Position numbers and translations under genes: made by a program
Shown: piece after piece, positions 5,012-24,764 of the stretch
Layout of the letters: each line of letters opens with the position of its first letter
Position numbering within the stretch: the first letter of the stretch is position 1
DNA from: a virus
Length of the DNA stretch: 27,186 nt
IMG/VR virus record: IMGVR_UViG_3300031757_000014
Coordinates: 1-27,186 of that record
Strand: one strand, 5' to 3'
The notes under the pieces: model-generated
The model's database searches: none
What the model was told of the DNA's origin: nothing
The model's input: only the letters and a program-made list of their open reading frames with translations

Positions 5012-5030
5012 GTAACGGGGGCCGGTTCCC

Positions 5031-5066: not shown

Positions 5067-5101
5067 CACCGACTGTCACAACCGTCTGCCATACTGGTCA
5101 C

Positions 5102-5889: not shown

Positions 5890-6570
5890 ATGAGTGGGAG
5901 AGATGCTTCCATTGTTGCCCAGGTTGCCGCAAAGGTTGCAGGTGAAGTCTGCGCCGGTAGCGGTGACGCCAACCTGTACCTGGCTACCGTTGAAACGGTC
6001 CACAACGATCTGGTGGAGCGTTGCGCTCTGGAAACGCTGACTACCGCGTTTCCTGGTGCGACCGCTGAGGCTGCCCCTGCGCCGCCCCCTCCGCCGGGTC
6101 CAACCCAGCAGTCGGTGGCTGCCGCCCCGGTCCCCAGGGCCGCAACAGGGGCGCCCAGTGGCGCCCAGGTGGGTCAGAAGATATACCCACGGGTCGACTT
6201 CTGTGTCGGCAAGGGCTCCGACGAGAAGCAGGCTGCTTGGAACCTGCTGGCATTCCAGCCGAACGAGTGGTCGGACGGCAACGGCGGCACCATCAAGGTG
6301 TTCGAGGTGAAGGAACACGCTGACGGTTCCACGGATGTTTCCAAGAGCGGGAAGAACTTCCCGAACTTCTCCGTGATGAAGGAGGCGTTCACCCACATGG
6401 GGGTGAACGTGTCCAACAACGTCGGCATCTGGGTCAACGACGGTGACAGCAATGTTCCGTTGAAGGTGTGGGATCAGGCCGGTGGTCAGACCCAGGCCGA
6501 CGCTGTCGACTTTGTGTGGGAGTCCCGCAGGGCGGATCTCCAGCAATACACCTACTCGAATAACCGGTAG
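5890..6570 (+). CDS. Two-domain protein with Ala/Pro linker, unknown role in DNA metabolism
   Basis: A helical N-terminal domain (about residues 1-56) is joined by an Ala/Pro-rich linker (about 57-95) to a C-terminal domain. That domain has several beta strands and aromatic residues (IYPRVDFCVGKG, WNLLAFQPNEW, VGIWVNDGDSN). The ATG at 5890 follows a GGGAGAGAGAGAG site and is preferred over a start 57 bases upstream that lies inside the exonuclease gene. It sits between the exonuclease and the helicase, and its stop touches the helicase start. The layout and position would suit a single-stranded-DNA-binding or helicase-loading factor, but no motif proves this. Confidence 0.7.
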   Translation: MSGRDASIVAQVAAKVAGEVCAGSGDANLYLATVETVHNDLVERCALETLTTAFPGATAEAAPAPPPPPGPTQQSVAAAPVPRAATGAPSGAQVGQKIYPRVDFCVGKGSDEKQAAWNLLAFQPNEWSDGNGGTIKVFEVKEHADGSTDVSKSGKNFPNFSVMKEAFTHMGVNVSNNVGIWVNDGDSNVPLKVWDQAGGQTQADAVDFVWESRRADLQQYTYSNNR

Positions 6571-7545: not shown

Positions 7546-8477
7546 TCGATACGTTCGCCCGGCTCCACCAGGGCGGCCGTATCGCCATCAACTACGATGG
7601 TATTCGCCCGTTGGTTGATTCCAAGGGGGAGGCTTACTCTGCGGTTGGTGAGCCGTATGAGGATGCGATCAGGGAACACCTTGATGGGGAACCCCCGATT
7701 GGTGTGTACCCGTTGTTCAGGAAGGATTACCAGCGCACTACCGAATGGTATGTGAACTGGTTGGCTGTTGACCTGGACGAGGGTGAGCCTGACTTCATTC
7801 ACGCCTGCAATCTGCAACGGTTGTTGGAACGGTTCAATGTTCGTGGCTGGATTGAACGGTCCAGGTCGAAGGGCTTCCATGTGTGGGTGTATCTGCGGCA
7901 GCCGTTGACTGCCGAGTTTGGCCGCGAGGCGATGATGGGGGCGTGCCGGCTGCTGGATGTACCCACCAAGGAGGTTTACCCGAAGCAGACGGCGTTGGAT
8001 GGGAAAGGGTTCGGGAACTGTTTGTTGTTGCCGTATCCGAACATGGGGAACCCTGGCCGGCAGGTCATCATCGACGATGATGACACCCCGTACCGGTTGG
8101 AGGCGTTTGTGGAGCAGGCGTGGGAGTCGAGGGCGAGTAGCCATGCGATCCGTTCCATCCATGCGTTGTACCAGGAGCGTCACTCGAAGCCCATCGCTCA
8201 GGTGGAGCATGTCAGAACGCGCCGTGATTCAGACTTCGGGTTCATTGCCCGCAGGATCTGGGATGGAGACATTCGGGAGGATCGTTCCAACGCCCTGTAT
8301 TCTTTCGCTTGTTCGCTATTTAGGCAGAACTACAGTGACCACACTGTTCTGCATTTGACAGGTCAACTCGATGAGCGTGTCGGAAAGTTCGTTGGCCGTA
8401 ATGACCGTGACCGCCGCTTGGAGGAACTTGTGATGAATGCCCGTAACAACACCCTGGGGGATTCCAATGGCACCTAA
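7533..8477 (+). CDS. Archaeo-eukaryotic-type primase (PrimPol-like)
   Basis: This 314-residue protein carries the marks of the AEP primase superfamily. A hhhDxD strand (WLAVDLDEG, Asp80 and Asp82) supplies metal ligands. An SKGFHVW box (112-118) matches the s-x-H motif, and GNCLLLPYP (161-169) is the conserved strand after it. The C-terminal part (about 225-314) has a DRSNALYSFACSLFRQ segment resembling the PriCT helical domain found behind phage and plasmid AEPs. It would make primers, or act as a primase-polymerase, at the fork together with the adjacent helicase. It overlaps both neighbouring genes slightly, so it is in the same operon. AEP assignment is by motifs only. Confidence 0.8.
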   Translation: MVDVVDTFARLHQGGRIAINYDGIRPLVDSKGEAYSAVGEPYEDAIREHLDGEPPIGVYPLFRKDYQRTTEWYVNWLAVDLDEGEPDFIHACNLQRLLERFNVRGWIERSRSKGFHVWVYLRQPLTAEFGREAMMGACRLLDVPTKEVYPKQTALDGKGFGNCLLLPYPNMGNPGRQVIIDDDDTPYRLEAFVEQAWESRASSHAIRSIHALYQERHSKPIAQVEHVRTRRDSDFGFIARRIWDGDIREDRSNALYSFACSLFRQNYSDHTVLHLTGQLDERVGKFVGRNDRDRRLEELVMNARNNTLGDSNGT

Positions 8478-8811
8478 TCCTGAGACATACCGGTTCACTG
8501 TTCGTGGCCGGCCGAAGGCGAAGGGTCGGCCACGTTTCGGAAAGGGGCGCACCTACACGCCGAAGGGAACGGTCGATGCCGAGCAGGTGATCGCTGATGC
8601 GTACAAGGGGCCGAAGTTTGAGGGGCCGGTGTCGTTGGCGTGCGCGTTCTCCAACGACCGGGTCACGATCACGTTGACTCCGATAGAGATGGAGAAGTCT
8701 CCGTTGCGGGGAGATGTTTCCAACTACCTCAAACTCGTTGAGGATGCTCTGAACGGTTTGGCGTATGACGATGACCGTCAGGTTCATCGCCTGGTCGGGA
8801 AGAAGAAGTAA
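8467..8811 (+). CDS. rusA: RusA-like Holliday junction resolvase
   Basis: The 114-residue size and motif order match RusA. An N-terminal VRGRPKAKGRPRFGKGRTYTP block is followed by RGDVSNYLKLVEDALNG (81-97) and YDDDRQVHRL (100-109). RusA enzymes cut four-way junctions symmetrically to resolve recombination or replication intermediates. The acidic motif normally reads D-x-D-N. Here the second acid is Ser85 (GDVSN), while Asp83, Asp93 and the DDD run remain. Such variants may still be active, but this should be kept in mind. The ATG at 8467 is chosen because an earlier start would lie deeper in the primase gene. The TAA overlaps the methyltransferase ATG by one base. Confidence 0.85.
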   Translation: MAPNPETYRFTVRGRPKAKGRPRFGKGRTYTPKGTVDAEQVIADAYKGPKFEGPVSLACAFSNDRVTITLTPIEMEKSPLRGDVSNYLKLVEDALNGLAYDDDRQVHRLVGKKK

Positions 8812-9428
8812 TGCGCGTACTCAACCTATATGCGGGAGTGGGGGGCAACAGGAAGCATTGGCGTGATTGTGAGGTCACGGCCGTCGAATGGGATCCCAAG
8901 ATCGCCGCCGTCTACACAGGCTTGTTTCCCGACGATGACATGGTCGTCGGGGACGCCCACCAGTACCTGCTCGACCACAGTGGCGAGTTCGACTTCGTCT
9001 GGAGTTCGCCTCCATGCCAATCACACTCACGAATGGTCAAGGCCGGACAGAACCGGTCGCCCCGCTACCCAGACATGGCGTTGTACGAGGAGGTCATCTA
9101 CCTCCAGCACTTCGCCAAGGCCCCGTGGGTGGTGGAGAACGTCCAGCCCTACTACGAGGTCTTGGTCCCCGCCCAGAAGGTGGGCCGCCACCTGTTCTGG
9201 ACGAACCTCGACCTCGCCCATGTCGAGGATGTGCCCCGGCCCAAGGGATTCATCAACCAGAAGCAGGTCGGCAAGCAAGACCTCATGGACTGGCTGGGCA
9301 TCCACTACGAGGGCAACGTCTACTACGACGGCAACCATTGTCCGTTCCAGGTGCTCCGCAACTGCGTCCACCCGGACCTGGGCCTCGCCGTGTTCGATAC
9401 GGCACGCGACAAGGGAGTCGCGGCATGA
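8811..9428 (+). CDS. Compact DNA cytosine-5 methyltransferase
   Basis: Motif I (LYAGVGGN, 6-13) binds S-adenosylmethionine. Motif IV holds the catalytic Cys69 in SSPPCQSHS, and motif VI is the ENV at 109-111. A C-terminal RNCVHPDLGLAVF stretch looks like a modified motif X. These are the signatures of DNA (cytosine-5) methyltransferases. At 205 residues it is far shorter than typical members of over 300, leaving little room for a target recognition domain. It probably methylates phage DNA against host restriction, or pairs with the next gene. It overlaps that gene by ATGA. Confidence 0.85.
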   Translation: MRVLNLYAGVGGNRKHWRDCEVTAVEWDPKIAAVYTGLFPDDDMVVGDAHQYLLDHSGEFDFVWSSPPCQSHSRMVKAGQNRSPRYPDMALYEEVIYLQHFAKAPWVVENVQPYYEVLVPAQKVGRHLFWTNLDLAHVEDVPRPKGFINQKQVGKQDLMDWLGIHYEGNVYYDGNHCPFQVLRNCVHPDLGLAVFDTARDKGVAA

Positions 9429-9919
9429 CGATACAGATCGAACTGGACCCGTGGGAGTACGAACACGCTTTGAACATTGGGGCACGCCGGTATGTGGCGA
9501 ACTGGGGTAAGCGTGACGCCACCCATTATGACAAGAACCGCATGGAGGACAACCGCACAGCGCAGGCTGCTGCCTGCGTGGGGGAACTAGCGGTAGCGAA
9601 GATCACGAACCAGTATTGGCCTGGGCATGTGTGGCACAAGTCGGAGCATAAGACTTACAGGCATCTGCCGGATGTGGGTCACAACATTGAGGTGCGTCGG
9701 GTACGGACCAGCACCAGTGCGGCTGTACGCCGCCGCCAGTTGGAACAGGGGTTGATCCTGTGGGTGGTGCAACCTGTTCCTCCAGAGTTTCGGGTCGTCG
9801 ACATTCTGGGTTGGATCGATTACGACGAAGCGTGGGCGAAGGGTGAGCCGGCGCATTACGACCTGGAGAACACCAGGGTCATCGGGGAGCAGTTTCTGAA
9901 CGCACCGTCGATTGAGTAG
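9425..9919 (+). CDS. Putative PD-(D/E)XK nuclease-like protein
   Basis: This 164-residue protein begins at the ATGA overlap with the methyltransferase. Its pattern suggests the restriction-endonuclease-like fold. A helix ends in CVGELAVAKI (Glu54), a LPDVGHNIEVRR strand pair supplies Asp83 and an E-x-R version of the E-x-K motif (Glu89, Arg91), and beta strands follow (LILWVVQPV, FRVVDILGWIDYDEAW). Proteins of this general layout are seen in actinobacterial phages. It could be a nuclease or an inactive relative, and the lysine-to-arginine change leaves catalysis in doubt. Tight coupling to the methyltransferase raises the possibility of a restriction-modification-like pair; that is inference. 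Confidence 0.6.
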   Translation: MTIQIELDPWEYEHALNIGARRYVANWGKRDATHYDKNRMEDNRTAQAAACVGELAVAKITNQYWPGHVWHKSEHKTYRHLPDVGHNIEVRRVRTSTSAAVRRRQLEQGLILWVVQPVPPEFRVVDILGWIDYDEAWAKGEPAHYDLENTRVIGEQFLNAPSIE

Positions 9920-10337
9920 GGCGGAGCGGGGGGCATGGACATCCGATCCGCAGATGCTGGATCTACTATTAGGACCGGTCAGTCAATCACAGACTACGAT
10001 CCGGCCGTGGTCGCAGCGGCGCCCCGAAACTCTTTACGATGCTTTGGTGCGGGCCGCACCGTTCACTGAGCCGGAAGAAAGTATCGACGAACAGAACGAG
10101 TTGAGGGAGATCCTGGCTGATGCCGTGGATTCCCTCAGTGACGAAGACCAGTGGATCTTCCTCATGTTGACGACGGTCCGGCTCAGTTTGCGGTTTGTGG
10201 GCAGCGTTCTGGGTGTACCGAAGACCACGTTGGCGCGTAGACGCGACCGGATTATTCGGAAACTACAGGAACAGTTGTCAGAGTCGACGCTTGTTCAGAA
10301 ACGCCTTGTCCGTCAATCGTCTTCGAACGAATCGTAG
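9912..10337 (+). CDS. Sigma-70 region 4-like DNA-binding regulator
   Basis: The segment at about residues 63-122 has the layout of sigma region 4. A leading helix (LREILADAVDSL) is followed by DEDQWIFLML, then a helix-turn-helix (LRFVGSVLGVPKTTLARRRDRIIRKL). Such proteins direct or modulate RNA polymerase at promoters. No region 2 is present, so it is a partial sigma or an activator. It is the last gene of the DNA-metabolism operon and faces the late operon, so it is a good candidate for late gene control. The start is uncertain: TTG 9912 overlaps the previous stop, and an in-frame ATG lies at 9954. Confidence 0.7.
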   Translation: MSRAERGAWTSDPQMLDLLLGPVSQSQTTIRPWSQRRPETLYDALVRAAPFTEPEESIDEQNELREILADAVDSLSDEDQWIFLMLTTVRLSLRFVGSVLGVPKTTLARRRDRIIRKLQEQLSESTLVQKRLVRQSSSNES

Positions 10338-10630
10338 AGCATCAGGCATTGTTCCAGCATGTCCATGAAACCGTTCACCCATCTGAGGATGCGAGACAAG
10401 GCGATGAGGTCGCCGCCGTCTGCGTCATGCCAGGTGCCAACCATGCTGAGTGCTTCGTCGTGTTGGAACACCAGTAGTGTTCCGAGGCGACTGTTGTGCC
10501 AGGAAGCGTGGGTGCCGTCCTCCATGTCGAGGATGTGCCGGCTTTCTTGCAGGGAACGCAGAATGTCTTCTTCTAGTTGGACGCCACTCGATGCCATGAA
10601 GTCACCCCATTTGGCATCAAGGTCGTCCAC
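10313..10630 (-). CDS. Hypothetical protein at the end of the lysis/virion operon (105 aa)
   Basis: The GTG at 10630 shares its G with the TAG stop of the upstream holin gene, and an AGGGAT site lies nearby. The product is acidic, mostly helical, with His and Trp residues in the middle (GTHASWHNSR, FQHDEALSMVGTWHDADGG). It has a hydrophobic C-terminal helix and a DSFEDD tail. Its last 25 bases overlap the end of the convergent sigma-like gene. No family is recognised. Position after the holin makes a lysis accessory role possible, but nothing in the sequence shows it. Confidence 0.65.
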   Translation of the reverse strand: MDDLDAKWGDFMASSGVQLEEDILRSLQESRHILDMEDGTHASWHNSRLGTLLVFQHDEALSMVGTWHDADGGDLIALSRILRWVNGFMDMLEQCLMLYDSFEDD

Positions 10631-10788
10631 TACGCGATCTTATCCCTGGCGTACGTCTTGATGACGGATAGTGCTGCGGCGGTGCCGGCGACGACGGCTC
10701 CGCGGCCGGTCGACAGGTCACTGATAAGGAATACTCCCAGGAATCCCTGAACGAACGTCCAGGCTGCTCTCTCTAGCATGTCGGTCAT
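10630..10788 (-). CDS. r1t-type holin (52 aa)
   Basis: This short gene is easily missed. It encodes 52 residues with an N-terminal amphipathic helix, [18 protein letters not shown], passing into a hydrophobic GVFLIS stretch. A polar turn (DLSTGRG) and a second hydrophobic helix ([13 protein letters not shown]) follow, with a basic tail. This is the pattern of r1t-like holins of phages of Gram-positive hosts, which form membrane lesions that let the endolysin out. The ATG overlaps the upstream gene's TGA (ATGA), and its TAG overlaps the next GTG. The endolysin is about 0.5 kb upstream in the same operon, which supports the call. Confidence 0.8.
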
Positions 10789-10919
10789 TTTGAACCCTTC
10801 GATCTGTTTGCCTTATCGTAGGCAATAGCGGCGGCCTGGTCCCGTGGGTACCCTTCGGTAATCAACTTACCGATGTTGTGGCCGATTACGTTCTGGCTGG
10901 ACCCCTTCTTGAGGGGCAT
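10785..10919 (-). CDS. Conserved-looking phage minigene (44 aa)
   Basis: The 44-residue product begins [20 protein letters not shown] and continues with [18 protein letters not shown] and a basic tail. The pattern S-x2-V-I-x2-N-I-x-K-L-I-x2-G-x-P-x2-Q-A-x-A-I-A is one I recognise from small proteins found across many unrelated phages, whose function is unknown. The TGA overlaps the holin ATG. The predicted fold is two short helices. It sits between endolysin and holin but need not be a lysis factor. Confidence 0.7.
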
Positions 10920-10952
10920 GTCAGTAACTTGGGCGACGAGGCTTCTTCGGCA

Positions 10953-11084
10953 TCAGTCGAACAGTGCCTTGCGGGCACCGGCCTTCGATGGTGAGCCGAC
11001 AGTACCGATACCGCCACCCGTCTTCACCGAGGTGACCAGCACCTGGCTGGCCTTCACCTTCTTGGGGGTTGAACCATCTCTCAT
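10953..11084 (-). CDS. Basic Gly-rich minigene (43 aa)
   Basis: The frame from ATG 11084 to TGA 10953 is open for 43 codons and is preceded by AGGA a few bases upstream, right after the stop of the 61-residue gene. The product is basic (PKKVKASQ) with a Gly-rich turn (KTGGGIGTVGS) and a KAGARKALFD tail. No family is recognised. It is called because it fills an otherwise empty slot in a tightly packed operon and has a plausible start. A short frame of ten codons after it (10921-10953) is not called. Confidence 0.5.
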   Translation of the reverse strand: MRDGSTPKKVKASQVLVTSVKTGGGIGTVGSPSKAGARKALFD

Positions 11085-11090
11085 GGTGTC

Positions 11091-11276
11091 CTACTTCCCG
11101 AAGGGGCGGCCGCCACTGTTGGCGTTCCCCAGTTTCGTCTTGCGGAGATACGCGGCGTCTTTCTTCGCCTTGCCGCTCATGGCGTGCATGTTCTCGCTCG
11201 ATGTCGAGTCGTAGGGCTGTTCGTCCTGCGATCCGAACGTCTTCTCGAATGTGTCGTAACCTTTGCCCTTCGGCAT
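11091..11276 (-). CDS. Small polar hypothetical protein (61 aa)
   Basis: A very strong AGGAGGT site eight bases before the ATG at 11276 supports this gene, and suggests it is highly expressed. The product is polar and Lys/Gly/Ser-rich, with a KAKKDAAYLRKTKLG basic helix and no membrane segment. It begins directly after the endolysin gene with a short 35-base gap that shows no terminator. It could be a small virion or packaging-associated protein, but no evidence points to a specific role. Confidence 0.65.
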   Translation of the reverse strand: MPKGKGYDTFEKTFGSQDEQPYDSTSSENMHAMSGKAKKDAAYLRKTKLGNANSGGRPFGK

Positions 11277-11311
11277 GTGGGTACCTCCTATTAGATGGAT
11301 GGGGTGTCCCT

Positions 11312-12097
11312 CTACACGAAGAACAATGCCGTCCAGGTGTCACCGTCAAGGACACCGTTCGGCTTCAAGAAGCCCATAGCCTTCTCGAACTGTTTCACAG
11401 CGCCGGCTGTACGCCTACCATAGATCCCGTCAACAGGACCAGGGTCGTACCCACGGCCCTTCAAACGGCTCTGAGCGGCCCTCACAGCCTCTCCACGGCT
11501 CCGCTGGCGCCACGACAGGGGTGCAGCCGCCACACGGTCCCTGAGAGCCGTCAGATAGGCCACAATCCCCGCCCAATCAATATCGGAAGGCGGACCCTGC
11601 TCAACATGGGCACCATCCGTCAACCAGTCATACAGCCAATCACCAGGACAAGTCGACGACGACACATCCCGATGCCCCCGCACCCACAACGAACCCCCAT
11701 ACCGGAACTGCACATCATCAACAACCGACTGAATAGCCTTCAACGCCACATCCGGCACCCGCTCATACCCCCACCCCGTATAACAGATCGACTCCGAACG
11801 GGCATTCCACCCCTTCGTAGCAGCACCACGCACACCAGGCCCACGCCCCTCAAACACCGCACCAGCCGCATCCACCAACCAGTTGTAAGCAATCCCATCC
11901 CACTTACGGGAATCCATATGGTACGACTCGAACGCCTTCACCGCAGCAACCGACGACGGCCCATCCTTCACACCGCTGTGATGCAACACCACACCCTTCA
12001 CACGCCCAGGACGCAACGCACGAAACGGCTTCGCCGGCTTACGCGCCCCCCACTCAACCCGCGACACAACCCCCCGCGTCTGCGACAACGGCTTCAT
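11312..12097 (-). CDS. Endolysin: N-acetylmuramoyl-L-alanine amidase with peptidoglycan-binding domain
   Basis: The N-terminal domain (about 1-165) is an Amidase_2/PGRP-type fold. It has WGARKP at 16-21, His39 in VLHHSG, Tyr71 in AYNWLVD, and the zinc ligands His142 and Cys150 in GHRDVSSSTCPG. These enzymes split the amide bond between N-acetylmuramic acid and L-alanine in peptidoglycan. The C-terminal part (about 195-261) matches the PG_binding_1 helical repeat (AVRAAQSRLKGRGYDPGPVDGIYG). No signal peptide is visible, so release needs the holin downstream. The ATG overlaps the stop of the 2575-residue gene (ATGA) and follows GAGGG. Confidence 0.93.
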   Translation of the reverse strand: MKPLSQTRGVVSRVEWGARKPAKPFRALRPGRVKGVVLHHSGVKDGPSSVAAVKAFESYHMDSRKWDGIAYNWLVDAAGAVFEGRGPGVRGAATKGWNARSESICYTGWGYERVPDVALKAIQSVVDDVQFRYGGSLWVRGHRDVSSSTCPGDWLYDWLTDGAHVEQGPPSDIDWAGIVAYLTALRDRVAAAPLSWRQRSRGEAVRAAQSRLKGRGYDPGPVDGIYGRRTAGAVKQFEKAMGFLKPNGVLDGDTWTALFFV

Positions 12098-15000
12098 CGA
12101 ACCCTCATTTCAATATCAATCAAATCGCGCATCTTCTCATCAAACGCCCGATCATTCCTAATGATCTGATTACGAGTCTCATGCGGATCATTGACCCGCA
12201 CCTGCGTACCAAACACCGTAGACACCACAGTCGACGCAACACGCCGCGAATAACGGCTCTCATTCGGCAACAACCTACGGAACCTCGACAAGAACGGCAT
12301 CCAACTATCCATCATATACAAATCCTGATCCCGCATCTTATACTCCCCCTTCTTATCCTTCTTCGCCTTCCCCGCCAAACTCAACGCATCCATAAGAAAC
12401 GGGAACTTGGCGTACACATGAGGCACCTGCTGATACCTGCCGCTGAACGGCAGATCAGCAAAGAACTGCTTCCCCGCCCAAATCTCCAACGGCACCTTCA
12501 CCGGCGGCGCAGCCGACTCAGCAAACACCCGCGTGATCGACCCCGGCTCCTTCATCAAACGGTTCAGATCACGGAACGGCAAATCAGGAATCCAATACGA
12601 CTGATAATCGTTGATCTTCCACGGCAACCGGATAGCCATGTTCTCCAGGAAATAATCCGGCACCACCCCCTCCTCCTTCGACTGGAGTTCCAGGTTGCCC
12701 TTCACCTGCTGCAACCGGCCCCACGCATACGGATGCTTCCCCAGGCTCTCCACCAGAATCGGCACCACATTCTTCTGCCAGGTCCAGAACGGAATGATGC
12801 GACGCATCTTCCGTTCCATACTCGTCAAATCCGCATAGTTGAAATGGAACTTGTAAACCTGGCCGGCAGCGTCAGCAACCGAACCGCCCTTCTGCAACAC
12901 ATCGAACGCCAGAGCGCCACGCAACACCGTTTCCATCTGCTCATTCGACGAGCGGATAAACCGGAACGGAGCGAACTCCGTCGAAGCCGGATTGAACACC
13001 ACATCAATCGGCTGGTTGGTGATCGGATTGCGAGACTCCCTGACAAGCCTCATAGCAACATTCCTGTCAACCTCAGTGATGACCTGTCCGCCACCAACAA
13101 TGCCGCTGTCGAGAACACGACGGATGGTACGCAACTCGTTGATGTCGACACGGGAACCAAACCCGACAGACACCGACTTCTTCTTACTTATTCCAAGTGC
13201 TTTTATCATCTCATCGACACCCTTGACAGCGTTCCCTTCACCCAACTTCGACGCCTTGAAAAACACCCCGGCGAACTTGTTCGTCGAACCCAACTCCATC
13301 AAACCAAACGCGTACGACAACCACGAACCACCCAAACCATTACGGATAACGAACCCCGGCGTAGACACCGCCTGCGCCTTCCAATAGTTCAGGAACTTGT
13401 CGTACCACTTCAAGAACGCACCAAAGTCGCCGCTTGAAGAACTCGTCTTGAACAACGCGTTCAACATCTCGAACACCGGGGCCGCTTCACCCCCACCGTC
13501 ACCCAACGGTGCCGACCATCCCCGCGACCACTTCGGATCCACAGAGTTCGGCCCCCACTGTGCCGCCGTCTGCTGCGTCAACGACTTATCGAACAGATCC
13601 TTACCCCTGGAGGTGTTGAACTTACGCAACGCCGCCTGGAAATAATCCATGTCGGTACGCGTCCCATCGAACAACTCCGCCACATCCTTCGGAGCCAGAC
13701 CCTGATGCGCCAGATCCTTCCGACCACCAGGCTCCCTCAGATTCGCACCAGCCGCCTCATACACCTCCTTCGTGACATCGAACTCGGCCTGGAGTTGACG
13801 TAGCCGCCCCTGCATCGTCGCAATCTCCGCCTCAACCGTCAACCCGACCCGCATCGCCGCCTCAGCCTTTTCGTAATCCGCCAAAGCGTACGCCAGATGA
13901 TTCAGGCGTTCCGCCTGGATCAGAACGTCACGCTCCGCCTCCGTGAACGCCATCCGCTGCTCCAACGGCATCCGCCACATCGGCTCATCCAACCACGACA
14001 AACCCTCCTCGATGCCACCAGGGAACCCTGTTGTTTCCGTCCGACCCGTCAACGTCGCCAACGCCTGCCGCACCCCACCCTGCCGGGCCGGATCCAAGAA
14101 CGTAGCCCCCACCGCACCCTGAGCCTCCGCCCCCGTCCAACGGTTCTCGAACACCTCCTGCGCCCACCCGTCGATACGGCTCTCCGCCGCCGCATAGTTC
14201 TTGAACTTGACACCTGGACCCAACGGTGCCCGCGTTCCCGGCACCTTTTCCCCTGTCTTCGCAGGCGAAGCCATCAACCCCGACGGGGCATCAAGAATCT
14301 CCACACCCTGACCAGTCCGCTTCCCAACGAACCGCAACCGGAAATCACCGAAAGGCGTACGCACAATGGCTTCGTCGAACCTGGGGGCGCCCTTCGGCCC
14401 GTACATTCCCGACGGATCCGGCGCCCTGGTAGCCGCCGCCGGAGGCTTAGGTGCGCCCTCCGATCTGATAAGGCTTGCATCAAGCACCACCATCTCATCC
14501 CCTACTACCGGGTGAGGATCATCCACACCCGAACGAATCTGCTTGCCCCGCAAGATGATTACGTCATAACCCTGTTCAGAAGCAAGGCGTGAACCGTAAA
14601 CACCCAACAGCGAATAAGCGTCCTCACCTTCGTCAATCATCCTCCGATAATCGAAACCGGGGAACCGTTCTTCAAGTTCGGTTAGCAGGCGCTCAACGTG
14701 GTCTTTCCTCAGTTCACCGTCGCCTCGCAGGAGGCGTCCCCATTCGGCGTCATCCAACAAGTGTCTCAGCGCGCTGACCCCGGCGTCAGCCTCGTATTCA
14801 GAACCCCAGAACGCCGCTCTTTCAGGAATGGTCACCTTTGCCTGGGGAACCTCCAACGGGTTCTTCGGCATAACCGTGGCATAAACGGGTTCTCCAAGAT
14901 CCCTATGAGCCGACACCCCGCCAGGAGGCGCTTCGTCTAACGGGGTGACATACAACCCTTGCGGTTTACCTTCGGCAAAAGCCTGTGCGTCGGGTTCCGC

Positions 15001-18000
15001 ATGGCGCACAATCCGAATCTCACGGGCCGTAGGTGCCGCTGCTGCCGGAGGCGTAACCGCCTCCGCTGTTGCTTCCAGCATTTCCTCACGGGTTATCTCC
15101 CCCAGGGCGTACTCCTGGTAAGGCGTGGCCGGCGGTGGCGTAACCGCCTCCGCAGCCGCCACACGGGCAGTAGGAGCATCGCCCACCAAACTGTCCACAT
15201 GCGCCTTAGCGTCCTCCAAAGTCTCCCACACCCCAGGAACCGCCACGGTCTTATCAGGGTTGCTCTTTGCCGGGACACGCACATTGCCGCCGTCGGCAAC
15301 CTTCTCAAACTTCTCCATCCCCTCCCGCTTGTACCAAACCGTCCAGCCGCCAGCCTTCCCCTTCGACCTACGAATCCGAAACATGGTCGGTTCGACCTCA
15401 CCCCAGGACCTCCCCCTTGGCAGCATCACTCCTTCGCTCGCGTTCAGATCCGCTACCAGTTCGTAAGCGTCGCCCTTCTTGTAGCCGGCAAGATCCCTCC
15501 ACACCGGCCCCCCCGCCGGCGGTGTGACCGCCTCCGCAGCAACCTCACGGGCCGTAGGCGCCGGCACCCCCTCGCCAGCCCACTTCCCCAAACTCTCCTT
15601 GATCTGCCCAATGCCCCCTTTGGCCTCAACAACCCGAACATGCTCCCCCACCAGGCCACGCGCCTGTGCCCTCTTTAGAAGATCCCTCATCAAGGCACGG
15701 TACGCAGCGGGACCGTAGAAGAACAGTTCCTCCGCACCCCCCACAAGATCAGCAAACTTCTGTAGTTGTTCAGGCCCGGCAACAACCTCCTTAGCGCCCG
15801 TCTTAGGCAACTGCACATCGTACGACCCGACCATCTCCGTCGGATCCAACACCCCGTGCTTCGCAGAGATAATGCCACCCAACTCGGCGTCACTACCGTC
15901 GATCTGGCGCCTCAGATACTTGAAGGTTTCGCCCGTATAAAGATCCTCGGCAGCAACCGTGGCACCTTCCACCATCGGGCACTTGTCTCCCGTGCAGGCA
16001 GAGAACACCTTGCGGCGAGCCGCAGCACGCCTGGCAGCAACACCACCAGCCGCTGCTGCCGGAGGCGGCGTAACCGCCTCCGCACTACGGGCAGCCAGGA
16101 GGCGGTCCACCTCATCAATCTCGTCGAGCAGATCACGCATCTCCGGGGAATACGACTTCCGCGCCTCCAGATCACTGAGGTCGAGAAGAATGTCACCAGA
16201 CCCGTCATCGGCAATAAAGCCGCCCTCATCCAAAGCACGACTCAACTGCTCATTCAACTCGTCGGCACGGTTCGTCAACGCACTCCGTGTAGACGCTGCT
16301 GCCGGCGGAGGCGTAACCGCCTCCGCAGCCACCGCACGCGCCGTAGGAGCCACACCCAACCGCTTCGTCGCTTCGGCCTGCGCCAACTCCTTCGCCTCAT
16401 TCAACGAACCAACCCGCCCCACTTCCTCACCATTCACCGAAACAACCCAGCCGTCACGAACCCACTTATCGACCTCCTTGCCAAACTCCTCAACCGTCTG
16501 CACTGTGCCATGCGGTTCAACAGTCCAGACATCGATCTGACGGCGACCATCCACCTCCCGCACCGACATCGCACTCTCCCCAGGCAACGTCGTGCGCGGC
16601 TTAGATCCGACATGCTTACCGGCATCAGTCCACGCCTTCGCCTCTCGAAGCCGCAACGCCTGGCGTTCCTCCAACGTCATACGCGTCGCTTCATCAACAT
16701 TCGTGACGCTGCGGTACTTGATTAGTAGTTCTTTCTCCGACGGGATCGAATACTTCGGCTCCCGCAACGGCCGGGAAGCAAACGGCACCTCCTCAGACGG
16801 CGCCTTCGACCACTTCAACGGCTGACCCTCAGCCACCTCCGCCCCACCGGAAACATTCCTCGACCACACACCATCCCGCAACGTCGCTTCCAAACGTACA
16901 AACGGCGAATCCTTAGACAACAACACCCCACCAGCCAACGCCTGACGCTGCTGCCACTCATCCAACGACGCCCCGTAACCATGCCCCCGATCCAAAGCAC
17001 CCCGATACGCAGCAGTCACTTCCTCCCAACTATTCTCAGCCTCCCCCATCCACCTCGGCAAATCATTCACAGAAATCCCGTTGTAATCCCGATAAATACT
17101 CCCAATATCAGGATAAAGACGACCATCCAAATGAACCTCCCGCACATCAAACCCAGGAGCAGGCACAGTCTTCGCCCACGGGCCAGGAGGATCAGGGTTC
17201 AACAACTCCCGAAACTCAAACACATCCCCAAACCACTCCCGCATCCTCGGAACCTCAGGAAAAGCATCCAACAACCCCTGCTTATCCAACTCCGCCAACG
17301 GCTCCTGCAACGCAGCAAGCAACCGCTTCATCGACTGAACATCCGTCGACACCTCAGCCAACGACTTAGCGTCCTCCACCAAATGCCGCATCTTCTCCGC
17401 AGCGGCCGCAAACGCCTCCGTCAACTCGGCCAACAACTTCTCATCAGTAATCGTTCTCGTCGCCGCCGTCTGCTGCCCCATCAACATCCTGCTGACCGCC
17501 TCCAACTGGGCCTTCCGGTACCCAATCAACGACGCTTCCTCCAACAAAGGCTTCATGAACTCATGCATCGACTCCTTCGACTGGCGGCCACGACGGGTCA
17601 CATCGCCCATCGCCTCGATCAACCGGGACTGTATGTCAACCAGTTTCGCCTCAAGAATCTCAGTCTCAGCCACCCACGCAGCCGCCTGCTCCCCCATCTC
17701 AGACGCACCTTCCCGCTTCGCAATTTTCATCCGCATGGCCTTCACCTGCTCCACATCCAGGCCGGCCTCAATCCCCCTGAACACCTCATCAAACAAATCG
17801 CCCCTGGCGCCATACTGCTTTTTCAACGCATTGTGGGCAACATCTTTTTGCCCCTTGATCCAAGTCAACGGCTCCTGGAACGCAATACCCCCCTCCTCCA
17901 ACAAGGTCATAATCTTTGATCGACGCACCCCCTCCCCGATCTTGCTCAAATAAACATCCATAGCCTTCCAAATGTTCGTATCAAACAGTTCCTCCGCCCC

Positions 18001-19821
18001 ATCACCAAACTCGGCTTTCGCTATCGCCTTGATCTGCTCATCAACCGTGCGACGCAAGGGATCATCCGCCTGCTTCATCAACGGGATACCCCTGAACTCG
18101 CCGCCAGCAATCAGTTGACGCTGCATCGTCGGGTCATACGCCTGCTCCAACGCCCGACGCATCACCCACAACTCATCGGCACTCGAAGCCAACCAGTTCA
18201 TCCCACCAAACGCATTAGCGCGCAGCAGAGCATTATCCATCCAGTGGCGGCCCTGAGTCCAGAAATCCGCAACAACGCTCAGGCCGGCACGTTCAATCAC
18301 AGCACCAAACTTCTGCTGAAACGCCGGATTCATAACCGGCAAACCATTCTCCACAACAGTCGCACCCAACGAATCAGTAAGGTAATACTGCGTTTTCAGC
18401 ATGTCGTCGACCTGCTTGGGCTCCAACCCCAACCGGCGAGCCGACCGGCGAAGATCCAACGCATCCTTCGACATGAGATCCATGAACCGGTTACGGGCAG
18501 CCCACCCCGCATTATTGCCCACCATGATCCTGTTGGCATCCAACACTGTTTCGTAATCGCCGCTTCGCAACCCCCGTTTGAGGCCGGCCTTCGTGTTGAA
18601 CGAGTTCTCAATCGTTTCCGCAATCCCCCTACTGAGCGGGCCCGCTTTCGCCTTCTTTTTCGCAGTCTCCCTACTGAACAGGTTCGCTTTCGCCTTCCCG
18701 AACTGCGGAACAACCGTCGTCAACACCTTCCCGGTGAAACCAGGCAACTTGAACGCCTCGACCGGCATCCTCGCCGCCACCCGTGCCGCCGCCGTATAGA
18801 AATCGTCAGGCATGTCACCCAAATCGACACCCTTGGCGATGTCTTTCATTCGGCCAACGATCCTCGCTTCCGCAGCAGCCGCATCCTGCGCCCCGGCCGC
18901 CCCGAACCTGGCAACCGCCTCAGCGGCATCATCAAGCGCCCCCTGCGCCACAGGGCGGGCCAACTCGCCAATGTACGGCAACTTTGACGCCTGGCTGGCA
19001 CGACGGGCCGTCACACCACCCCTGGTGGCCTTGTCCAACACCTTGTCCAAACGCACCGCCCGCCCCAGACGCCCCGTCGTCGGAAAAAACAACCCCATCT
19101 GCCCCAACAAACCAACTTCCTTCAACGCCTCCGCTCCCGCCGAATGCATAGCATTCGACCTGCCGACAGCATTCACACCATCCTTCAACACCTTCGACTT
19201 GTGAGCGGCCTGCGTCGCCGTCACCCCAGCCTTACCGCCAGCCTTGACAATGTCGTCGTACCAGGCGGCACCCTTCGACATCACATTTATCAACTTCGGG
19301 GCCGTCATCCCCGCACGACCAGCAGCCCCAATACCACCCGTCATATAAGTAATCGGATCAAACGCAATATCCAACCCCAACCCAAGCACCATGTCCAACG
19401 GGCCAGGAAGATCCAACCCCCAATCACGCATCACATCCTGCATAAACAGGTTGTCCTCAGTCTGCTTCCACCAATCAACAGGCGAAAACCCCTCACCGGT
19501 AAACAGATCACCAACCTCTTTGATCGTCGACACAATCGCCGCACGCGGCGTATCGATCAGATCAATAAACTTCCCCAACGGGCCAGCAAACTCAAACGGC
19601 CCCGGCTCCGGCTCCGGCGCCTTCGGGAACTGCACCGGGTCAGGCCGCGGCGCCAACTGCTCTATCGTAATAGGCGTACGCTGCGGCACATCCTTCGGAG
19701 CCCTCACCAGGTCGATCAACGGACCCTGGGCGCCCCCAGTCATATTGGCGAGAATATCCCCCCGGCTGGGCCGGCCAGGCCCAGTCGTAATGTTCGCCAG
19801 AATATCTTCACGCGACGGCAC
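12094..19821 (-). CDS. Giant polyvalent virion-type protein (2575 aa) with repeat-linked modules
   Basis: The GTG start at 19821 follows a strong GGAGG. Residues 2-33 hold a duplicated (P)SR(E/G)DILAN(I/M)T unit. The N-terminal 1000 residues are helical, Ala-rich and phage-structural in style. From about 1165 to 1785 come modules split by five AEAVTPP linkers (near residues 1169, 1251, 1433, 1560 and 1589). They include a coiled coil, a DUF6884-like module (about 1270-1420, with CTGDKC, AAEDLYTGETF and IISAKHG) and an ADP-ribosyltransferase-like module (about 1600-1785, with GLYVTP, NPLEVP, GYDVIILRG and DEMVVLDASLI). The C-terminal 450 residues (from TPGFVIRNGLGGSW near 2155) resemble conserved ends of large polyvalent proteins. 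It is likely packaged and injected with the DNA; this is inferred from family and position. Confidence 0.85.
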   Translation of the reverse strand: MPSREDILANITTGPGRPSRGDILANMTGGAQGPLIDLVRAPKDVPQRTPITIEQLAPRPDPVQFPKAPEPEPGPFEFAGPLGKFIDLIDTPRAAIVSTIKEVGDLFTGEGFSPVDWWKQTEDNLFMQDVMRDWGLDLPGPLDMVLGLGLDIAFDPITYMTGGIGAAGRAGMTAPKLINVMSKGAAWYDDIVKAGGKAGVTATQAAHKSKVLKDGVNAVGRSNAMHSAGAEALKEVGLLGQMGLFFPTTGRLGRAVRLDKVLDKATRGGVTARRASQASKLPYIGELARPVAQGALDDAAEAVARFGAAGAQDAAAAEARIVGRMKDIAKGVDLGDMPDDFYTAAARVAARMPVEAFKLPGFTGKVLTTVVPQFGKAKANLFSRETAKKKAKAGPLSRGIAETIENSFNTKAGLKRGLRSGDYETVLDANRIMVGNNAGWAARNRFMDLMSKDALDLRRSARRLGLEPKQVDDMLKTQYYLTDSLGATVVENGLPVMNPAFQQKFGAVIERAGLSVVADFWTQGRHWMDNALLRANAFGGMNWLASSADELWVMRRALEQAYDPTMQRQLIAGGEFRGIPLMKQADDPLRRTVDEQIKAIAKAEFGDGAEELFDTNIWKAMDVYLSKIGEGVRRSKIMTLLEEGGIAFQEPLTWIKGQKDVAHNALKKQYGARGDLFDEVFRGIEAGLDVEQVKAMRMKIAKREGASEMGEQAAAWVAETEILEAKLVDIQSRLIEAMGDVTRRGRQSKESMHEFMKPLLEEASLIGYRKAQLEAVSRMLMGQQTAATRTITDEKLLAELTEAFAAAAEKMRHLVEDAKSLAEVSTDVQSMKRLLAALQEPLAELDKQGLLDAFPEVPRMREWFGDVFEFRELLNPDPPGPWAKTVPAPGFDVREVHLDGRLYPDIGSIYRDYNGISVNDLPRWMGEAENSWEEVTAAYRGALDRGHGYGASLDEWQQRQALAGGVLLSKDSPFVRLEATLRDGVWSRNVSGGAEVAEGQPLKWSKAPSEEVPFASRPLREPKYSIPSEKELLIKYRSVTNVDEATRMTLEERQALRLREAKAWTDAGKHVGSKPRTTLPGESAMSVREVDGRRQIDVWTVEPHGTVQTVEEFGKEVDKWVRDGWVVSVNGEEVGRVGSLNEAKELAQAEATKRLGVAPTARAVAAEAVTPPPAAASTRSALTNRADELNEQLSRALDEGGFIADDGSGDILLDLSDLEARKSYSPEMRDLLDEIDEVDRLLAARSAEAVTPPPAAAAGGVAARRAAARRKVFSACTGDKCPMVEGATVAAEDLYTGETFKYLRRQIDGSDAELGGIISAKHGVLDPTEMVGSYDVQLPKTGAKEVVAGPEQLQKFADLVGGAEELFFYGPAAYRALMRDLLKRAQARGLVGEHVRVVEAKGGIGQIKESLGKWAGEGVPAPTAREVAAEAVTPPAGGPVWRDLAGYKKGDAYELVADLNASEGVMLPRGRSWGEVEPTMFRIRRSKGKAGGWTVWYKREGMEKFEKVADGGNVRVPAKSNPDKTVAVPGVWETLEDAKAHVDSLVGDAPTARVAAAEAVTPPPATPYQEYALGEITREEMLEATAEAVTPPAAAAPTAREIRIVRHAEPDAQAFAEGKPQGLYVTPLDEAPPGGVSAHRDLGEPVYATVMPKNPLEVPQAKVTIPERAAFWGSEYEADAGVSALRHLLDDAEWGRLLRGDGELRKDHVERLLTELEERFPGFDYRRMIDEGEDAYSLLGVYGSRLASEQGYDVIILRGKQIRSGVDDPHPVVGDEMVVLDASLIRSEGAPKPPAAATRAPDPSGMYGPKGAPRFDEAIVRTPFGDFRLRFVGKRTGQGVEILDAPSGLMASPAKTGEKVPGTRAPLGPGVKFKNYAAAESRIDGWAQEVFENRWTGAEAQGAVGATFLDPARQGGVRQALATLTGRTETTGFPGGIEEGLSWLDEPMWRMPLEQRMAFTEAERDVLIQAERLNHLAYALADYEKAEAAMRVGLTVEAEIATMQGRLRQLQAEFDVTKEVYEAAGANLREPGGRKDLAHQGLAPKDVAELFDGTRTDMDYFQAALRKFNTSRGKDLFDKSLTQQTAAQWGPNSVDPKWSRGWSAPLGDGGGEAAPVFEMLNALFKTSSSSGDFGAFLKWYDKFLNYWKAQAVSTPGFVIRNGLGGSWLSYAFGLMELGSTNKFAGVFFKASKLGEGNAVKGVDEMIKALGISKKKSVSVGFGSRVDINELRTIRRVLDSGIVGGGQVITEVDRNVAMRLVRESRNPITNQPIDVVFNPASTEFAPFRFIRSSNEQMETVLRGALAFDVLQKGGSVADAAGQVYKFHFNYADLTSMERKMRRIIPFWTWQKNVVPILVESLGKHPYAWGRLQQVKGNLELQSKEEGVVPDYFLENMAIRLPWKINDYQSYWIPDLPFRDLNRLMKEPGSITRVFAESAAPPVKVPLEIWAGKQFFADLPFSGRYQQVPHVYAKFPFLMDALSLAGKAKKDKKGEYKMRDQDLYMMDSWMPFLSRFRRLLPNESRYSRRVASTVVSTVFGTQVRVNDPHETRNQIIRNDRAFDEKMRDLIDIEMRVR
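15046..16326 (-). repeat. Five palindromic linker repeats inside the giant gene
   Basis: Five copies of GGCGTAACCGCCTCCGC-type sequence occur in frame at 15046-15065, 15132-15153, 15518-15537, 16060-16082 and 16305-16326. The best copy has perfect 9-bp arms (GCGGAGGCG / CGCCTCCGC) around TAAC. The copy at 16060 has 9-bp arms with a five-base loop, that at 15046 has 8-bp arms, and those at 15132 and 15518 are degraded. All encode Ala-Glu-Ala-Val-Thr-Pro-Pro on the minus strand, often beside an Ala-Pro-Thr-Ala-Arg motif, and fall between protein modules. Confidence 0.85.
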
Positions 19822-19823
19822 GA

Positions 19824-21869
19824 CTACCTCCGTGCCTCGTACTCCTGCATGGCTTCGATGTCGCCCCAGCCGCCAATCGGTACATTCGCCAGCGTATCGT
19901 TGATATCCACCGGGTAATATCCGAACGGAGCGTTCTGCTGCTCATCGAGTTCTGACCTGAAACCGATCTCCGGATCGATGAAATACGTTTCACCATTAGG
20001 ACCAACCCACGGCATCATGTTCTCGTAATCACCCGCAGGGTTCTCCATCATGTCCCCATACAGATCACCCAACAAGCCACCCGCCGACATGGCCTGCGCC
20101 GTACCCGGCGTCAAACCCATCTGAGCATCAATCTGAGCGAACTGCGCCGCCTCAGCAGCAGCCGCCTGATTCGACTTCGCCTCAGCCTCCGCCTTAGCCT
20201 GAGCAGCCTCAGCCCTCGAAATCTGCCCCGACGCCTCCAACTGATCGATACGAGACACCTCAGACTGATACGCCTGCTGCGCCTGATACTGACCCGCACG
20301 CTGCGTCTGCCCCGCACCAAACGCACCAGCAGTAGCCGCCTCAGCACCCTTGAACCTACCCGCAGCATTCGCCTGCCCAGCACCATACATGCCCGTGCTG
20401 TACGCCTGATTAGCCCCAAACTGTCCCTGAGCGATCTGATTCAACAACGACTGCTGCGCCCCCAACTCGCCAGTACCGATCTGACCCAACGCCTGCATGT
20501 TCTGCAAACCCAGATCCGTACGCCGCCCAGCAATATCCTCCGCCAAATCCGCCCGGCCACCAAACAACTCATCCGCCAAAGCACTACGGGCATCCTGGAA
20601 CAACCCAGTCGCCCCCAACTGGCGGTCAGTAGCCTCCGACGCCGCAATCGACGCCAAACGGCCCTGCAAATCCTGCGACGAAAGACCCTGCGACCCCAAC
20701 AACGCCGCAGTCTCAGCACCAACCGCCGACGTATACGCCTCCGGCCCCACACCCTGCTCCCGCAGAGCAGCCTCCGCATCCAACCGGCGCTGATCCAAAC
20801 CACCCTGAGCGCCGGTGTAACGCCCACTCATGGCATCCGCCATCGCCTGCTCCTGGGTCAGACGCTCACCCTCCAAGGTGCCCATCTGCCCCAACAGGGC
20901 CGCCTCGTTCGAGTCGAGGCGGGCGCCACGATCCAGTTCCAACTGGTCATACACGCCGCCCCGGCGGGTCTGCTCGGCGTTCAACGAATCAATCAGATGC
21001 TGGTACTGCTGGCCGGCATTCGCCCGCTGCATGTCAGCCATCGCCAGAATCTGGCCCTGCTCACGGCCCTGACGGCCCGTCAAATACTCCAGGGTGTCAT
21101 CACGGACACCACCGTAATAACCCTCATCGGCGGCGCCCCTGTCATCCCAATACTGACCAGACCGATCCCCCGCATCAGACCAGTAATCACCAGTCACCGT
21201 GCCCTCGTCCTCGAAATATGCTTCCGACGTATCGAAAGCGGTCTGGGCATCATCCCGCATATCGTCATACAGATCAACGTATGAATCCTCGATACTGGCA
21301 AGCGGTGCGGCAGGTGCGGCAGGTGCGGCAGGTGCGGCAGCATTGTTTGCCACAAAGTTCTTCCAGTCATCTGACTCGACCTGGCCCAGAAACGCGTCCA
21401 ACGCAGATTGCCCACCACGCAGCGCAGGGTCACCCATAGCGCCAGGTGAACCAAACACCGGGGCATCCTGCACCGCCTCGTAAGCAGCCGTGTTACCACC
21501 CGTAACCGGATCGTAATAAGCGTTCCCTGCTGCCACATACCGTTGTCCCGACAACTCAAACGGGTCAGGTCGTGCAGGTGCGGGCGCAGGTGCCTGGGCG
21601 CCAGGATACGCAATCCTTGCCGGCGAAGGCGCCTGTGCGCCAGGATACGCAATCCTTGCCGGCGCCGGTACAGCACCTGGCCGGTTGATAGCCCGCGACT
21701 GAGGCCGCTGGGCGGCAGCCACCGCAGGAGTCGCACCAGCACCCGTGCCACCGCTGGCACCACCGGCAGCCAACATCGTGTTGGGGGGGCCACCTGTCGT
21801 CGCAGCATTCGTCAGAATGCCGCTACGACTCCGCACAGACGGAGCCATCCGACCGCGAGGACCAGCCAT
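19824..21869 (-). CDS. Ala/Gln/Gly-rich virion-type protein (681 aa)
   Basis: The ATG at 21869 overlaps the upstream stop by one base. The N-terminus (1-100) is Pro/Ala-rich with tandem PARIAYPGAQ units. It is followed by an acidic Tyr-rich region (about 190-275, many DYWSD- and YDD-type motifs). Then comes a long helical stretch (about 280-600) rich in Gln, Ala and Gly, with motifs such as GQFGANQAYSTGMYGAGQ. The C-terminus is acidic. The composition resembles internal virion or tail-associated proteins of podovirus-like phages, but no catalytic motif is seen. It is directly upstream of the 2575-residue gene, which suggests the two products act in one virion substructure. Confidence 0.7.
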   Translation of the reverse strand: MAGPRGRMAPSVRSRSGILTNAATTGGPPNTMLAAGGASGGTGAGATPAVAAAQRPQSRAINRPGAVPAPARIAYPGAQAPSPARIAYPGAQAPAPAPARPDPFELSGQRYVAAGNAYYDPVTGGNTAAYEAVQDAPVFGSPGAMGDPALRGGQSALDAFLGQVESDDWKNFVANNAAAPAAPAAPAAPLASIEDSYVDLYDDMRDDAQTAFDTSEAYFEDEGTVTGDYWSDAGDRSGQYWDDRGAADEGYYGGVRDDTLEYLTGRQGREQGQILAMADMQRANAGQQYQHLIDSLNAEQTRRGGVYDQLELDRGARLDSNEAALLGQMGTLEGERLTQEQAMADAMSGRYTGAQGGLDQRRLDAEAALREQGVGPEAYTSAVGAETAALLGSQGLSSQDLQGRLASIAASEATDRQLGATGLFQDARSALADELFGGRADLAEDIAGRRTDLGLQNMQALGQIGTGELGAQQSLLNQIAQGQFGANQAYSTGMYGAGQANAAGRFKGAEAATAGAFGAGQTQRAGQYQAQQAYQSEVSRIDQLEASGQISRAEAAQAKAEAEAKSNQAAAAEAAQFAQIDAQMGLTPGTAQAMSAGGLLGDLYGDMMENPAGDYENMMPWVGPNGETYFIDPEIGFRSELDEQQNAPFGYYPVDINDTLANVPIGGWGDIEAMQEYEARR
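21304..21339. repeat. 9-bp tandem repeat, four copies
   Basis: GGTGCGGCA occurs four times in a row at 21304-21339, encoding an (Ala-Ala-Pro)n stretch in the 681-residue protein. The multiple-of-three unit means copy-number slippage would keep the frame. Confidence 0.9.
21592..21669. repeat. 39-bp tandem duplication
   Basis: A 39-base unit is present twice, at 21592-21630 and 21631-21669. The 26-base core beginning GCCAGGATACGCAATCC is identical at 21600 and 21639. It encodes a 13-residue unit containing PARIAYPGAQ near the N-terminus of the 681-residue protein. Few differences between copies suggest a recent duplication. Confidence 0.85.
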
Positions 21870-23770: not shown

Positions 23771-24114
23771 TCCTCCCAGAAAGACTGCTCGTCCTGCATC
23801 AACAACGCGCTCACAGAGGAAGCCACCCCAGCAACCAGTTCCTCCATTGCGTCCACACGGCTACACAGGTCTTCCATCGCTGCCAACCGTGTTTCTAAAT
23901 CCCGAATGTCTTCCGAAACATCTTCCACTCGCGCATAAGCGTGCATGTCCATCGAATCTTCAATGGATTCGACCGATTCTTCGAGGCGGTCGATGCGTGC
24001 CACTGTGCGTGCTGATGACCATGTGATTGTTCCTGCGATGACCGCTACGGACAGTATGAGTCCGACCGCGATGGTCGGGATCTTTACCTGTCGGATGTCG
24101 GTTGGTTCGTTCAT
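23767..24114 (-). CDS. Membrane-anchored coiled-coil protein (115 aa)
   Basis: Residues about 12-32 form one transmembrane helix (IPTIAVGLILSVAVIAGTI) after a short polar N-terminus. The rest is a long acidic coiled coil (for example RIDRLEESVESIEDSM and DIRDLETRLAAMEDL), ending in a polar tail. The layout fits an inner-membrane-anchored protein projecting a coiled coil, as in some phage lysis accessories, but no spanin lipobox or holin pattern is present. It overlaps the oxygenase gene upstream by four bases (ATGA) and the coiled-coil minigene downstream, so the three are coupled. Confidence 0.68.
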   Translation of the reverse strand: MNEPTDIRQVKIPTIAVGLILSVAVIAGTITWSSARTVARIDRLEESVESIEDSMDMHAYARVEDVSEDIRDLETRLAAMEDLCSRVDAMEELVAGVASSVSALLMQDEQSFWEE

Positions 24115-24764
24115 GTGGGCGCATCGTCGTACTGGTCAAACCCCCACCACATCTGGAACACATACCGCGACTGCCCCACGGGAGGGAGCGTCTTGTGGGA
24201 ATGAGTCCACCCTGACGGGAAGATTATGAACCTGCCCGCCTGCGGGCGTATTGCGTCGTTCTGCTGTGGGAACACCAACTCGCCACCTTCGGCAACATCG
24301 TTCAGGAAACCCACACCTGTCAGATGCCGCCTGTTATACATGCCGTAGGGGTAGAAGTCGGAATGCACAGTGTGGTACGCCCCGCCATCCAAGTAGCGCA
24401 ACACCTGATACGACTCCGTTACCGAAAACGACGGAAACTTGTTTGCCGACGGAAACGTCGCAAGGTAACTGTCCAAGCAGCCAGATGCGAAATCCAACAT
24501 GGGTTTGTGAACAGCGGGGGAATCGTGGGACACGTACCCCTGCTGGTGGGAATCACGAAATGTGAGATCCACGATTCCTTCGTCGGCGGAAGCCAATACT
24601 TGTGAGCGATGCCAGTCCTGTCCCTCACTATGCTCAATGATGCTGTTGCACCGCACGGTCGAAGGATCAGCCTGATAAACGGCGATAAAGTTGTTTACGG
24701 ACACGGGTCGTTGTTCGGCAACCTTGTTCCGTTTCAGTAACTCCAACACTATTCGGCCACCCAT
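24111..24764 (-). CDS. 2OG-Fe(II) oxygenase, prolyl-4-hydroxylase-like
   Basis: The double-stranded beta-helix signature is clear: His134-Ser-Asp136 in YHTVHSDFYPYG, then His190 as the second iron His. Arg200 lies ten residues on (HKTLPPVGQSRY) and would bind 2-oxoglutarate. Conserved FLNDVAEGGELVFP and GRFIIFPSGW strands fit the P4H group. Such enzymes hydroxylate proline or other residues in proteins using 2-oxoglutarate, iron and oxygen. Its place among tail and fibre genes suggests a virion protein as substrate. The ATG at 24764 overlaps the previous gene by 16 bases. A GTG at 24749 overlapping that gene's stop is an alternative start. Confidence 0.88.
   Translation of the reverse strand: MGGRIVLELLKRNKVAEQRPVSVNNFIAVYQADPSTVRCNSIIEHSEGQDWHRSQVLASADEGIVDLTFRDSHQQGYVSHDSPAVHKPMLDFASGCLDSYLATFPSANKFPSFSVTESYQVLRYLDGGAYHTVHSDFYPYGMYNRRHLTGVGFLNDVAEGGELVFPQQNDAIRPQAGRFIIFPSGWTHSHKTLPPVGQSRYVFQMWWGFDQYDDAPT

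Follow-up and report, generated by a model that had tools for sequence, protein, structure and literature searches.

A recurring near-palindromic, in-frame linker repeat at module borders of a giant phage protein

In integrons, a folded palindromic site designated attC is situated between exchangeable cassettes. Phage proteins are known as domain mosaics whose joints usually are anonymous, and recent swap, gain and loss of domains between close relatives have been described by Smug et al. (2023; PMC10684548). The polyvalent proteins of Iyer et al. (2017; PMC5512222) are very large and multidomain, vary in their domains and are encoded at positions which suggest delivery together with the DNA. 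Palindromic DNA residing in frame inside genes is represented by the Rickettsia palindromic elements (PMC10969869), while PARCEL elements are protein-coding repeats with dyad symmetry which are thought to be shuffled between genes (PMC2996958). Here we describe a gene for a giant protein present in the virus record IMGVR_UViG_3300031757_000014, the entire 27,186 bases of which were analysed and are referred to as the window. The giant protein resembles both mosaic and polyvalent proteins, and one recurring DNA sequence in constant phase is found at its joints. Comparison with related viral sequences suggests that this repeat is probably a linker, conserved in its DNA, where short-homology recombination adds, removes and exchanges modules.

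Anatomy of the giant gene and its five repeats

The giant protein consists of a conserved N part (residues 1 to 1156), a variable module zone (approximately 1157 to 1790) and a conserved C part (approximately 1791 to 2575). Its first 1156 and last 790 residues share about 70-85% identity with those of relatives; between these conserved N- and C-terminal thirds the succession of modules, which AEAVTPP links to one another, differs from virus to virus. In the window, the repeats separate, in this order, the backbone, a 74-aa module, DUF6884, a 120-aa module, the mini-module (29 aa including the linker) and a module of about 200 aa, to which the C part is attached (Table 1). DUF6884 is the only domain recognised in the giant protein. 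An ADP-ribosyltransferase identity considered for the window-specific module following repeat 5 had to be abandoned as it found no support in Pfam. With regard to similarity to known ejection proteins such as the internal virion protein gp16 of T7, the PDB yielded no sequence relative. AlphaFold models of the C part (pLDDT 47.5) and of the module zone (pLDDT 40) are too weak to be interpreted; the repeats fall into stretches of lowest confidence, as does much else.

The giant gene, the last one of structural type, follows the tail genes and immediately precedes that of the amidase endolysin. Genes of podovirus internal virion proteins are likewise located after the tail genes and just before the endolysin. 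This placement suggests that modules of the giant protein may become active in the host cell upon entry and that the protein is probably carried in the virion as one of ejection or polyvalent type. Judged from its position, the 681-aa protein encoded just upstream may correspond to the podovirus internal virion protein that ranks second in size.

Table 1. Location of the repeats, of the modules they border and of further features of the window
Feature	Positions	Strand	Remarks
DUF932 / TIGR03299 phage-plasmid protein	1436-2530	minus	present on relative L003 too
PD-(D/E)XK exonuclease gene	5006-5869		
Primase	7533-8477	plus	matches AEP-TOTE (PF22548) and CRISPR-associated primase-polymerase; DnaB-like helicase gene adjoins
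Amidase/peptidoglycan-binding endolysin	11312-12097	minus	directly downstream of giant gene
Giant protein gene	12094-19821	minus	2575 aa, GTG start; single ORF holding all five repeats
Repeat 5 (aa 1586)	15046-15066	minus	palindrome form A; mini-module end, followed by window-specific module
29-aa mini-module, ...YQEYALGEITREEMLEAT	15067-15131	minus	between repeats 4 and 5
Repeat 4 (aa 1557)	15132-15153	minus	right arm broken; start of mini-module common to L003 and L009b; left flank unrelated
Repeat 3 (aa 1429)	15518-15537	minus	right arm broken; DUF6884 module end; homology to L017 and L003 stops here
DUF6884 module	15538-16059	minus	PF21818 match at aa 1287-1386; contexts differ within family
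Repeat 2 (aa 1247)	16060-16083	minus	palindrome of form B with a 9 bp stem and a loop of 5 nt; DUF6884 module start
Repeat 1, AEAVTPPP (aa 1166)	16305-16326	minus	full palindrome GCGGAGGCG-GTTA-CGCCTCCGC; border of N backbone and window-specific module
42-nt imperfect tandem duplication	18605-18688	minus	in N part of giant gene
681-aa protein	19824-21869	minus	no recognised family; just upstream of giant gene
39-nt tandem duplication	21579-21656	minus	90% identical; in gene of 681-aa protein
2OG-Fe(II) oxygenase gene	24111-24764	minus	inside structural region

A sequence-only reading of the window had described five palindromic repeats, all in one frame, each encoding AEAVTPP, mostly flanked by APTAR and placed at borders between unlike modules. 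Positions, common frame and peptide of all five are confirmed within the 2575-aa ORF, and the relatives bear out the module borders. The palindrome is complete, with stems of 8-9 bp, in three of the five copies, but the right arm is broken in those at 15132 and 15518, which retain perfect stems of 6 bp only. APTAR does precede three copies and follow a fourth, but it is lacking at the copy at 16060. Instead of the 17 nt assumed in that reading, the conserved unit comprises about 45 nt (R-E-V-A-A-E-A-V-T-P-P-P-A-A-A) with the near-invariant core GAGGCGGTYAC. On the coding strand of the window, the 10-mer GCGGAGGCGG is restricted to the repeats, with five occurrences, and it is absent from the other strand. 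Matches to the repeat pattern amount to 13 compared with 2.05 +/- 1.86 (largest value 8) expected from dinucleotide shuffles.

Occurrence of the repeat and module changes among relatives

To determine the distribution of the repeat, 2.9 million IMG/VR viral contigs were examined for the 20-nt motif GCGGAGGCGGTYACRCCNCC, which matched in 15 stretches. Repeated occurrence is restricted to homologues of the giant gene, mostly with several copies each, which together provide 33 non-identical copies; four contigs carrying the motif outside this family (L019, L023, L025 and L029) look like chance. A stricter form of the motif gave three matches in 84,980 bacterial and archaeal genomes, which lie in unrelated frames and were judged to be chance as well. 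If any codons are allowed, AAEAVTPP is found on 22 further contigs, none of them a homologue, all with a single copy and nearly all with other codons. Apart from these chance-like matches the element, for the core of which a search of host and related genomes had been proposed, was found neither in host nor in other viral genes of these collections. Its confinement to one gene family makes it unlike Rickettsia palindromic elements, and kinship with these is not supported. Relatives of the C part were not found in the 84,980 genomes, and 50,697 phage records contained no nucleotide match; the DUF6884 and GRLGASEEE modules, when used as queries, retrieved family members only.

The comparison set is small and comprises about nine distinct genomes, all of them metagenome contigs save two distant phage records. 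Eight copies of the repeat (one degenerate) are present in L009b, five each in L004 and L005 and four in L003. Distant homologues which possess the core of the protein and lack the repeat are L033 (1669 aa), Cellulosimicrobium phage DS1 (1783 aa) and podovirus ct52p938 (1313 aa). In L009, which contains Ns, a frame break splits the giant gene into ORFs 7850-11644 and 11671-18609, probably due to a fault of the draft sequence.

Alignment of these homologues reveals that module content changes within tens of bases of the repeats and always in frame, as had been anticipated; each of the five repeats in the window borders a module change with respect to at least one relative. Genome pairs of 92-98% identity lose their homology at a repeat (L005/L009b, L007/L017 and L003/L009b). 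L005 and L009b, whose flanks are 97-98% identical, share 97.6% identity to the left of a repeat and are unrelated to its right. Their common DUF6884 block extends 25-28 nt beyond the repeat's GAG, and homology resumes at the GAG of the following shared repeat. In L007 and L017 it is the right side which is conserved (92% identity), with the KIPTQ module common from 15 nt before GAG, while the left sides are unrelated. The same holds true for the mini-module, at whose repeat L003, L009b and the window share the sequence to the right and are unrelated to the left. At repeat 2, the homology between the window and L009b begins 4 nt before GAG. In total, twelve copy pairs combine one homologous with one unrelated flank and share 11-31 nt exactly. 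Calculated for all pairs within the repeat zone, 44% of the block ends are located no more than 30 nt from a repeat centre compared with 18% upon random placement (maximum 31% in 2000 trials), copy counts not being independent because the copies share descent.

The changing surroundings of DUF6884 illustrate this turnover. The module that comes after it varies among the window, L003, L005, L009b and L017 (in the latter it is the KIPTQ module), and the one in front of it is the GRLGASEEE module in L009b and the KIPTQ module in L007. The halves of the repeat can separate since L009b joins the backbone GGGCGCGAG directly to GCGGTCACACCG at GAGG, and L003 retains before DUF6884 the right arm CCGCCTCCGGCAGCG alone. 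Module changes without a repeat occur in the same gene as well: L004 and L005 split after GAGGTTGACC, and DUF6884 starts without a full repeat in L003 (right arm only) and in L005. Within the C part, L005 and L006 harbour a 357-nt insertion (about 119 residues; L005 gene nt 6403-6759) that is devoid of a repeat and lacking in the other members. Homologues with the same modules joined by unrelated linkers were not seen in the comparison set, and the sequence comparisons support the idea of module exchange.

Possible mechanism and rival explanations

General short-homology recombination would pair the invariant GCGGAGGCGGTY between co-infecting relatives, with a phage annealing recombinase or template switching during replication as the putative agent. 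A crossover at the repeat would fuse two unlike modules in frame through the flexible Pro/Ala linker, and repeated crossovers would preserve the similarity of the linker between genes. The identity needed amounts to 23-27 bp for Redbeta and to 31-34 bp for RecA (PMC3945230). Copy pairs with unrelated flanks exhibit exact identity over a median of 14 nt and a maximum of 41 nt, reaching at least 23 nt in 47 of 580 and at least 31 nt in 7. As the median falls below the known limits, many exchanges would need microhomology or template switching. The window does encode a PD-(D/E)XK exonuclease, but an annealing recombinase was not recognised among the scanned genes.

The palindrome may contribute to this process, as its hairpin may stall the polymerase or expose single strands and thereby raise the rate, though exchange may do without it. 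The palindrome is represented by three forms, GCGGAGGCG-GTYA-CGCCTCCGC, CGGAGGCGG-TYACG-CCGCCTCCG and CGGAGGCGGT-YAC-ACCGCCTCCG, their spacers measuring 4, 5 and 3 nt, respectively. The mean best stem is 7.7 bp in comparison with 3.8 bp for random codons and 6.0 bp (maximum 6.9) for codons shuffled between copies, none of 1000 such shuffles attaining the observed mean; among other in-frame 24-nt windows, only 12 of 8728 reach stems of 8 bp. A strong palindrome is present in about two thirds of the 33 copies, while in about one third the right arm is broken and stems do not exceed 6 bp. The near-invariant left and the varying right arm confer polarity on the repeat. As proposed in the sequence-only reading, the repeat was folded as DNA and RNA. 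Full copies of the window form stable folds both as single-stranded DNA (z -2.8 to -4.5), with strong hairpins on both strands, and as coding-strand RNA (z -2.4 to -3.3). Throughout the gene family GAGGCGGTY is invariant, and none of the 33 copies uses the valine codon GTG, which accounts for 48% of the valines in the gene. The backbone, used as a control, displays 4-fold third-base identities of 0.61-0.98 and invariant runs of up to 25 nt. Since its codons are well conserved, too, the core stands out only moderately by its DNA identity and sameness of DNA alone is not a proof of selection on DNA, which weakens the invariant core as strong evidence for it.

The strongest rival is plain linker duplication, in which a Pro/Ala spacer is copied along with domains, its sameness reflecting recent copying and codon bias and its palindrome being incidental. 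Such a palindrome is partly expected from peptide and codon bias, as random codings of an AEAVTPP-type peptide by codon usage produce stems of at least 8 bp in 2-6% of cases; the weak stems of one third of the copies, the conserved backbone codons and a 13-aa tandem copy in L003 agree with this explanation. Mere copying does not, however, predict that modules turn over predominantly at the repeats, nor that genomes with differing modules have like linkers, and we consider it rather unlikely, if deserving of some weight. Because of the 2-6% of chance codings, shared ancestry and the broken copies, the hairpin is an unproven, albeit plausible part of the exchange mechanism. That the palindrome itself is the active exchange site, its hairpin provoking recombination or template switching or being bound by an unknown enzyme, appears doubtful to us; if true, the phage gene would carry a built-in device for in-frame module reassortment with the linker peptide as a by-product. 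The hairpins on both strands, the polarity and the retention of the palindrome in three registers above the column-shuffled level would also suit a dedicated site, targeted by a recombinase or transposase as integron attC or REP/Y1, with the modules as cassettes. Yet neither an integrase nor a transposase was found among the genes scanned in the window and a 34.8 kb relative, these contigs being incomplete, and the contigs examined contain no silent store of cassettes, so that the self-encoded cassette system envisaged in the sequence-only reading receives no backing. As, in addition, the attC core GTTRRRY is missing, the spacer varies in length and no copies exist outside the gene, a dedicated site is quite improbable.

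Stable RNA folds, a GGAGG in every full copy and the location at domain borders are in line with a role of the mRNA, whose hairpin with its Shine-Dalgarno-like core would slow ribosomes to permit stepwise folding. Considering the broken right arm of one third of the copies, and since recombination accounts equally well for the conservation of the left arm, we regard this as improbable. The recurrence of the same peptide between modules could also indicate a putative phage-protease site, cleaved between AAE and AVTPP to cut the giant protein into modules, as the A-x-E pattern recalls the sites of phage head proteases. However, no protease was found, the residue preceding AEAV varies (A, T, P or S), and the avoidance of GTG would be left unexplained, which renders cleavage very improbable. 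Finally, unlike fragments might have been joined at short repeats during metagenome assembly, given that the members are metagenome contigs and L009 contains Ns and a frame break. Exact repeats within a gene have a median of 14 nt and do not exceed 41 nt, though, and read lengths in usual assembly are far above these values. Moreover, L005/L006 (12 SNPs) and L002/L003 (2 SNPs) originate from different assemblies and have the same module order; as replicate assemblies with independent SNPs agree, an artefact is hardly credible. Recombination at a shared linker, our preferred reading, would enable a virus, if the repeat raises exchange, to remodel a large protein rapidly by simple means, and would offer a convenient system in which the origin of intragenic mosaicism can be tested. 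The repeat also represents a sequence tag for finding the module pool used by these phages.

Comparison with known systems

Rickettsia palindromic elements measure about 100-150 bp and reside in many unrelated genes, whereas the repeat described here spans about 20-45 nt and belongs to one gene family. PARCEL elements form tandem arrays of 75 nt which constitute the domain itself; in contrast, the giant gene contains a short dispersed linker between unlike modules and no tandem arrays of a 25-residue amphipathic repeat. With respect to attC, none of the copies harbours GTTRRRY and fusion takes place inside one reading frame; an integron integrase was not detected among the genes scanned on these incomplete contigs.

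With 2575 residues and several unrelated modules the giant protein accords with the description of a polyvalent protein as a large phage protein of several distinct domains. As in polyvalent proteins, the position of its gene would suit delivery together with the DNA. It differs in that DUF6884 is the one domain recognised; the word “linker” does not appear in the text of Iyer et al. (2017; PMC5512222). Closest is the domain mosaicism reported by Smug et al. (2023; PMC10684548), the text of which does not contain “palindrom”: as in their mosaic proteins, near-identical segments lie beside unrelated ones within homologous giant proteins. What distinguishes the giant gene is that one recurring linker, conserved in its DNA, nearly palindromic and in frame, occupies the joints, several copies of it being present in a gene.
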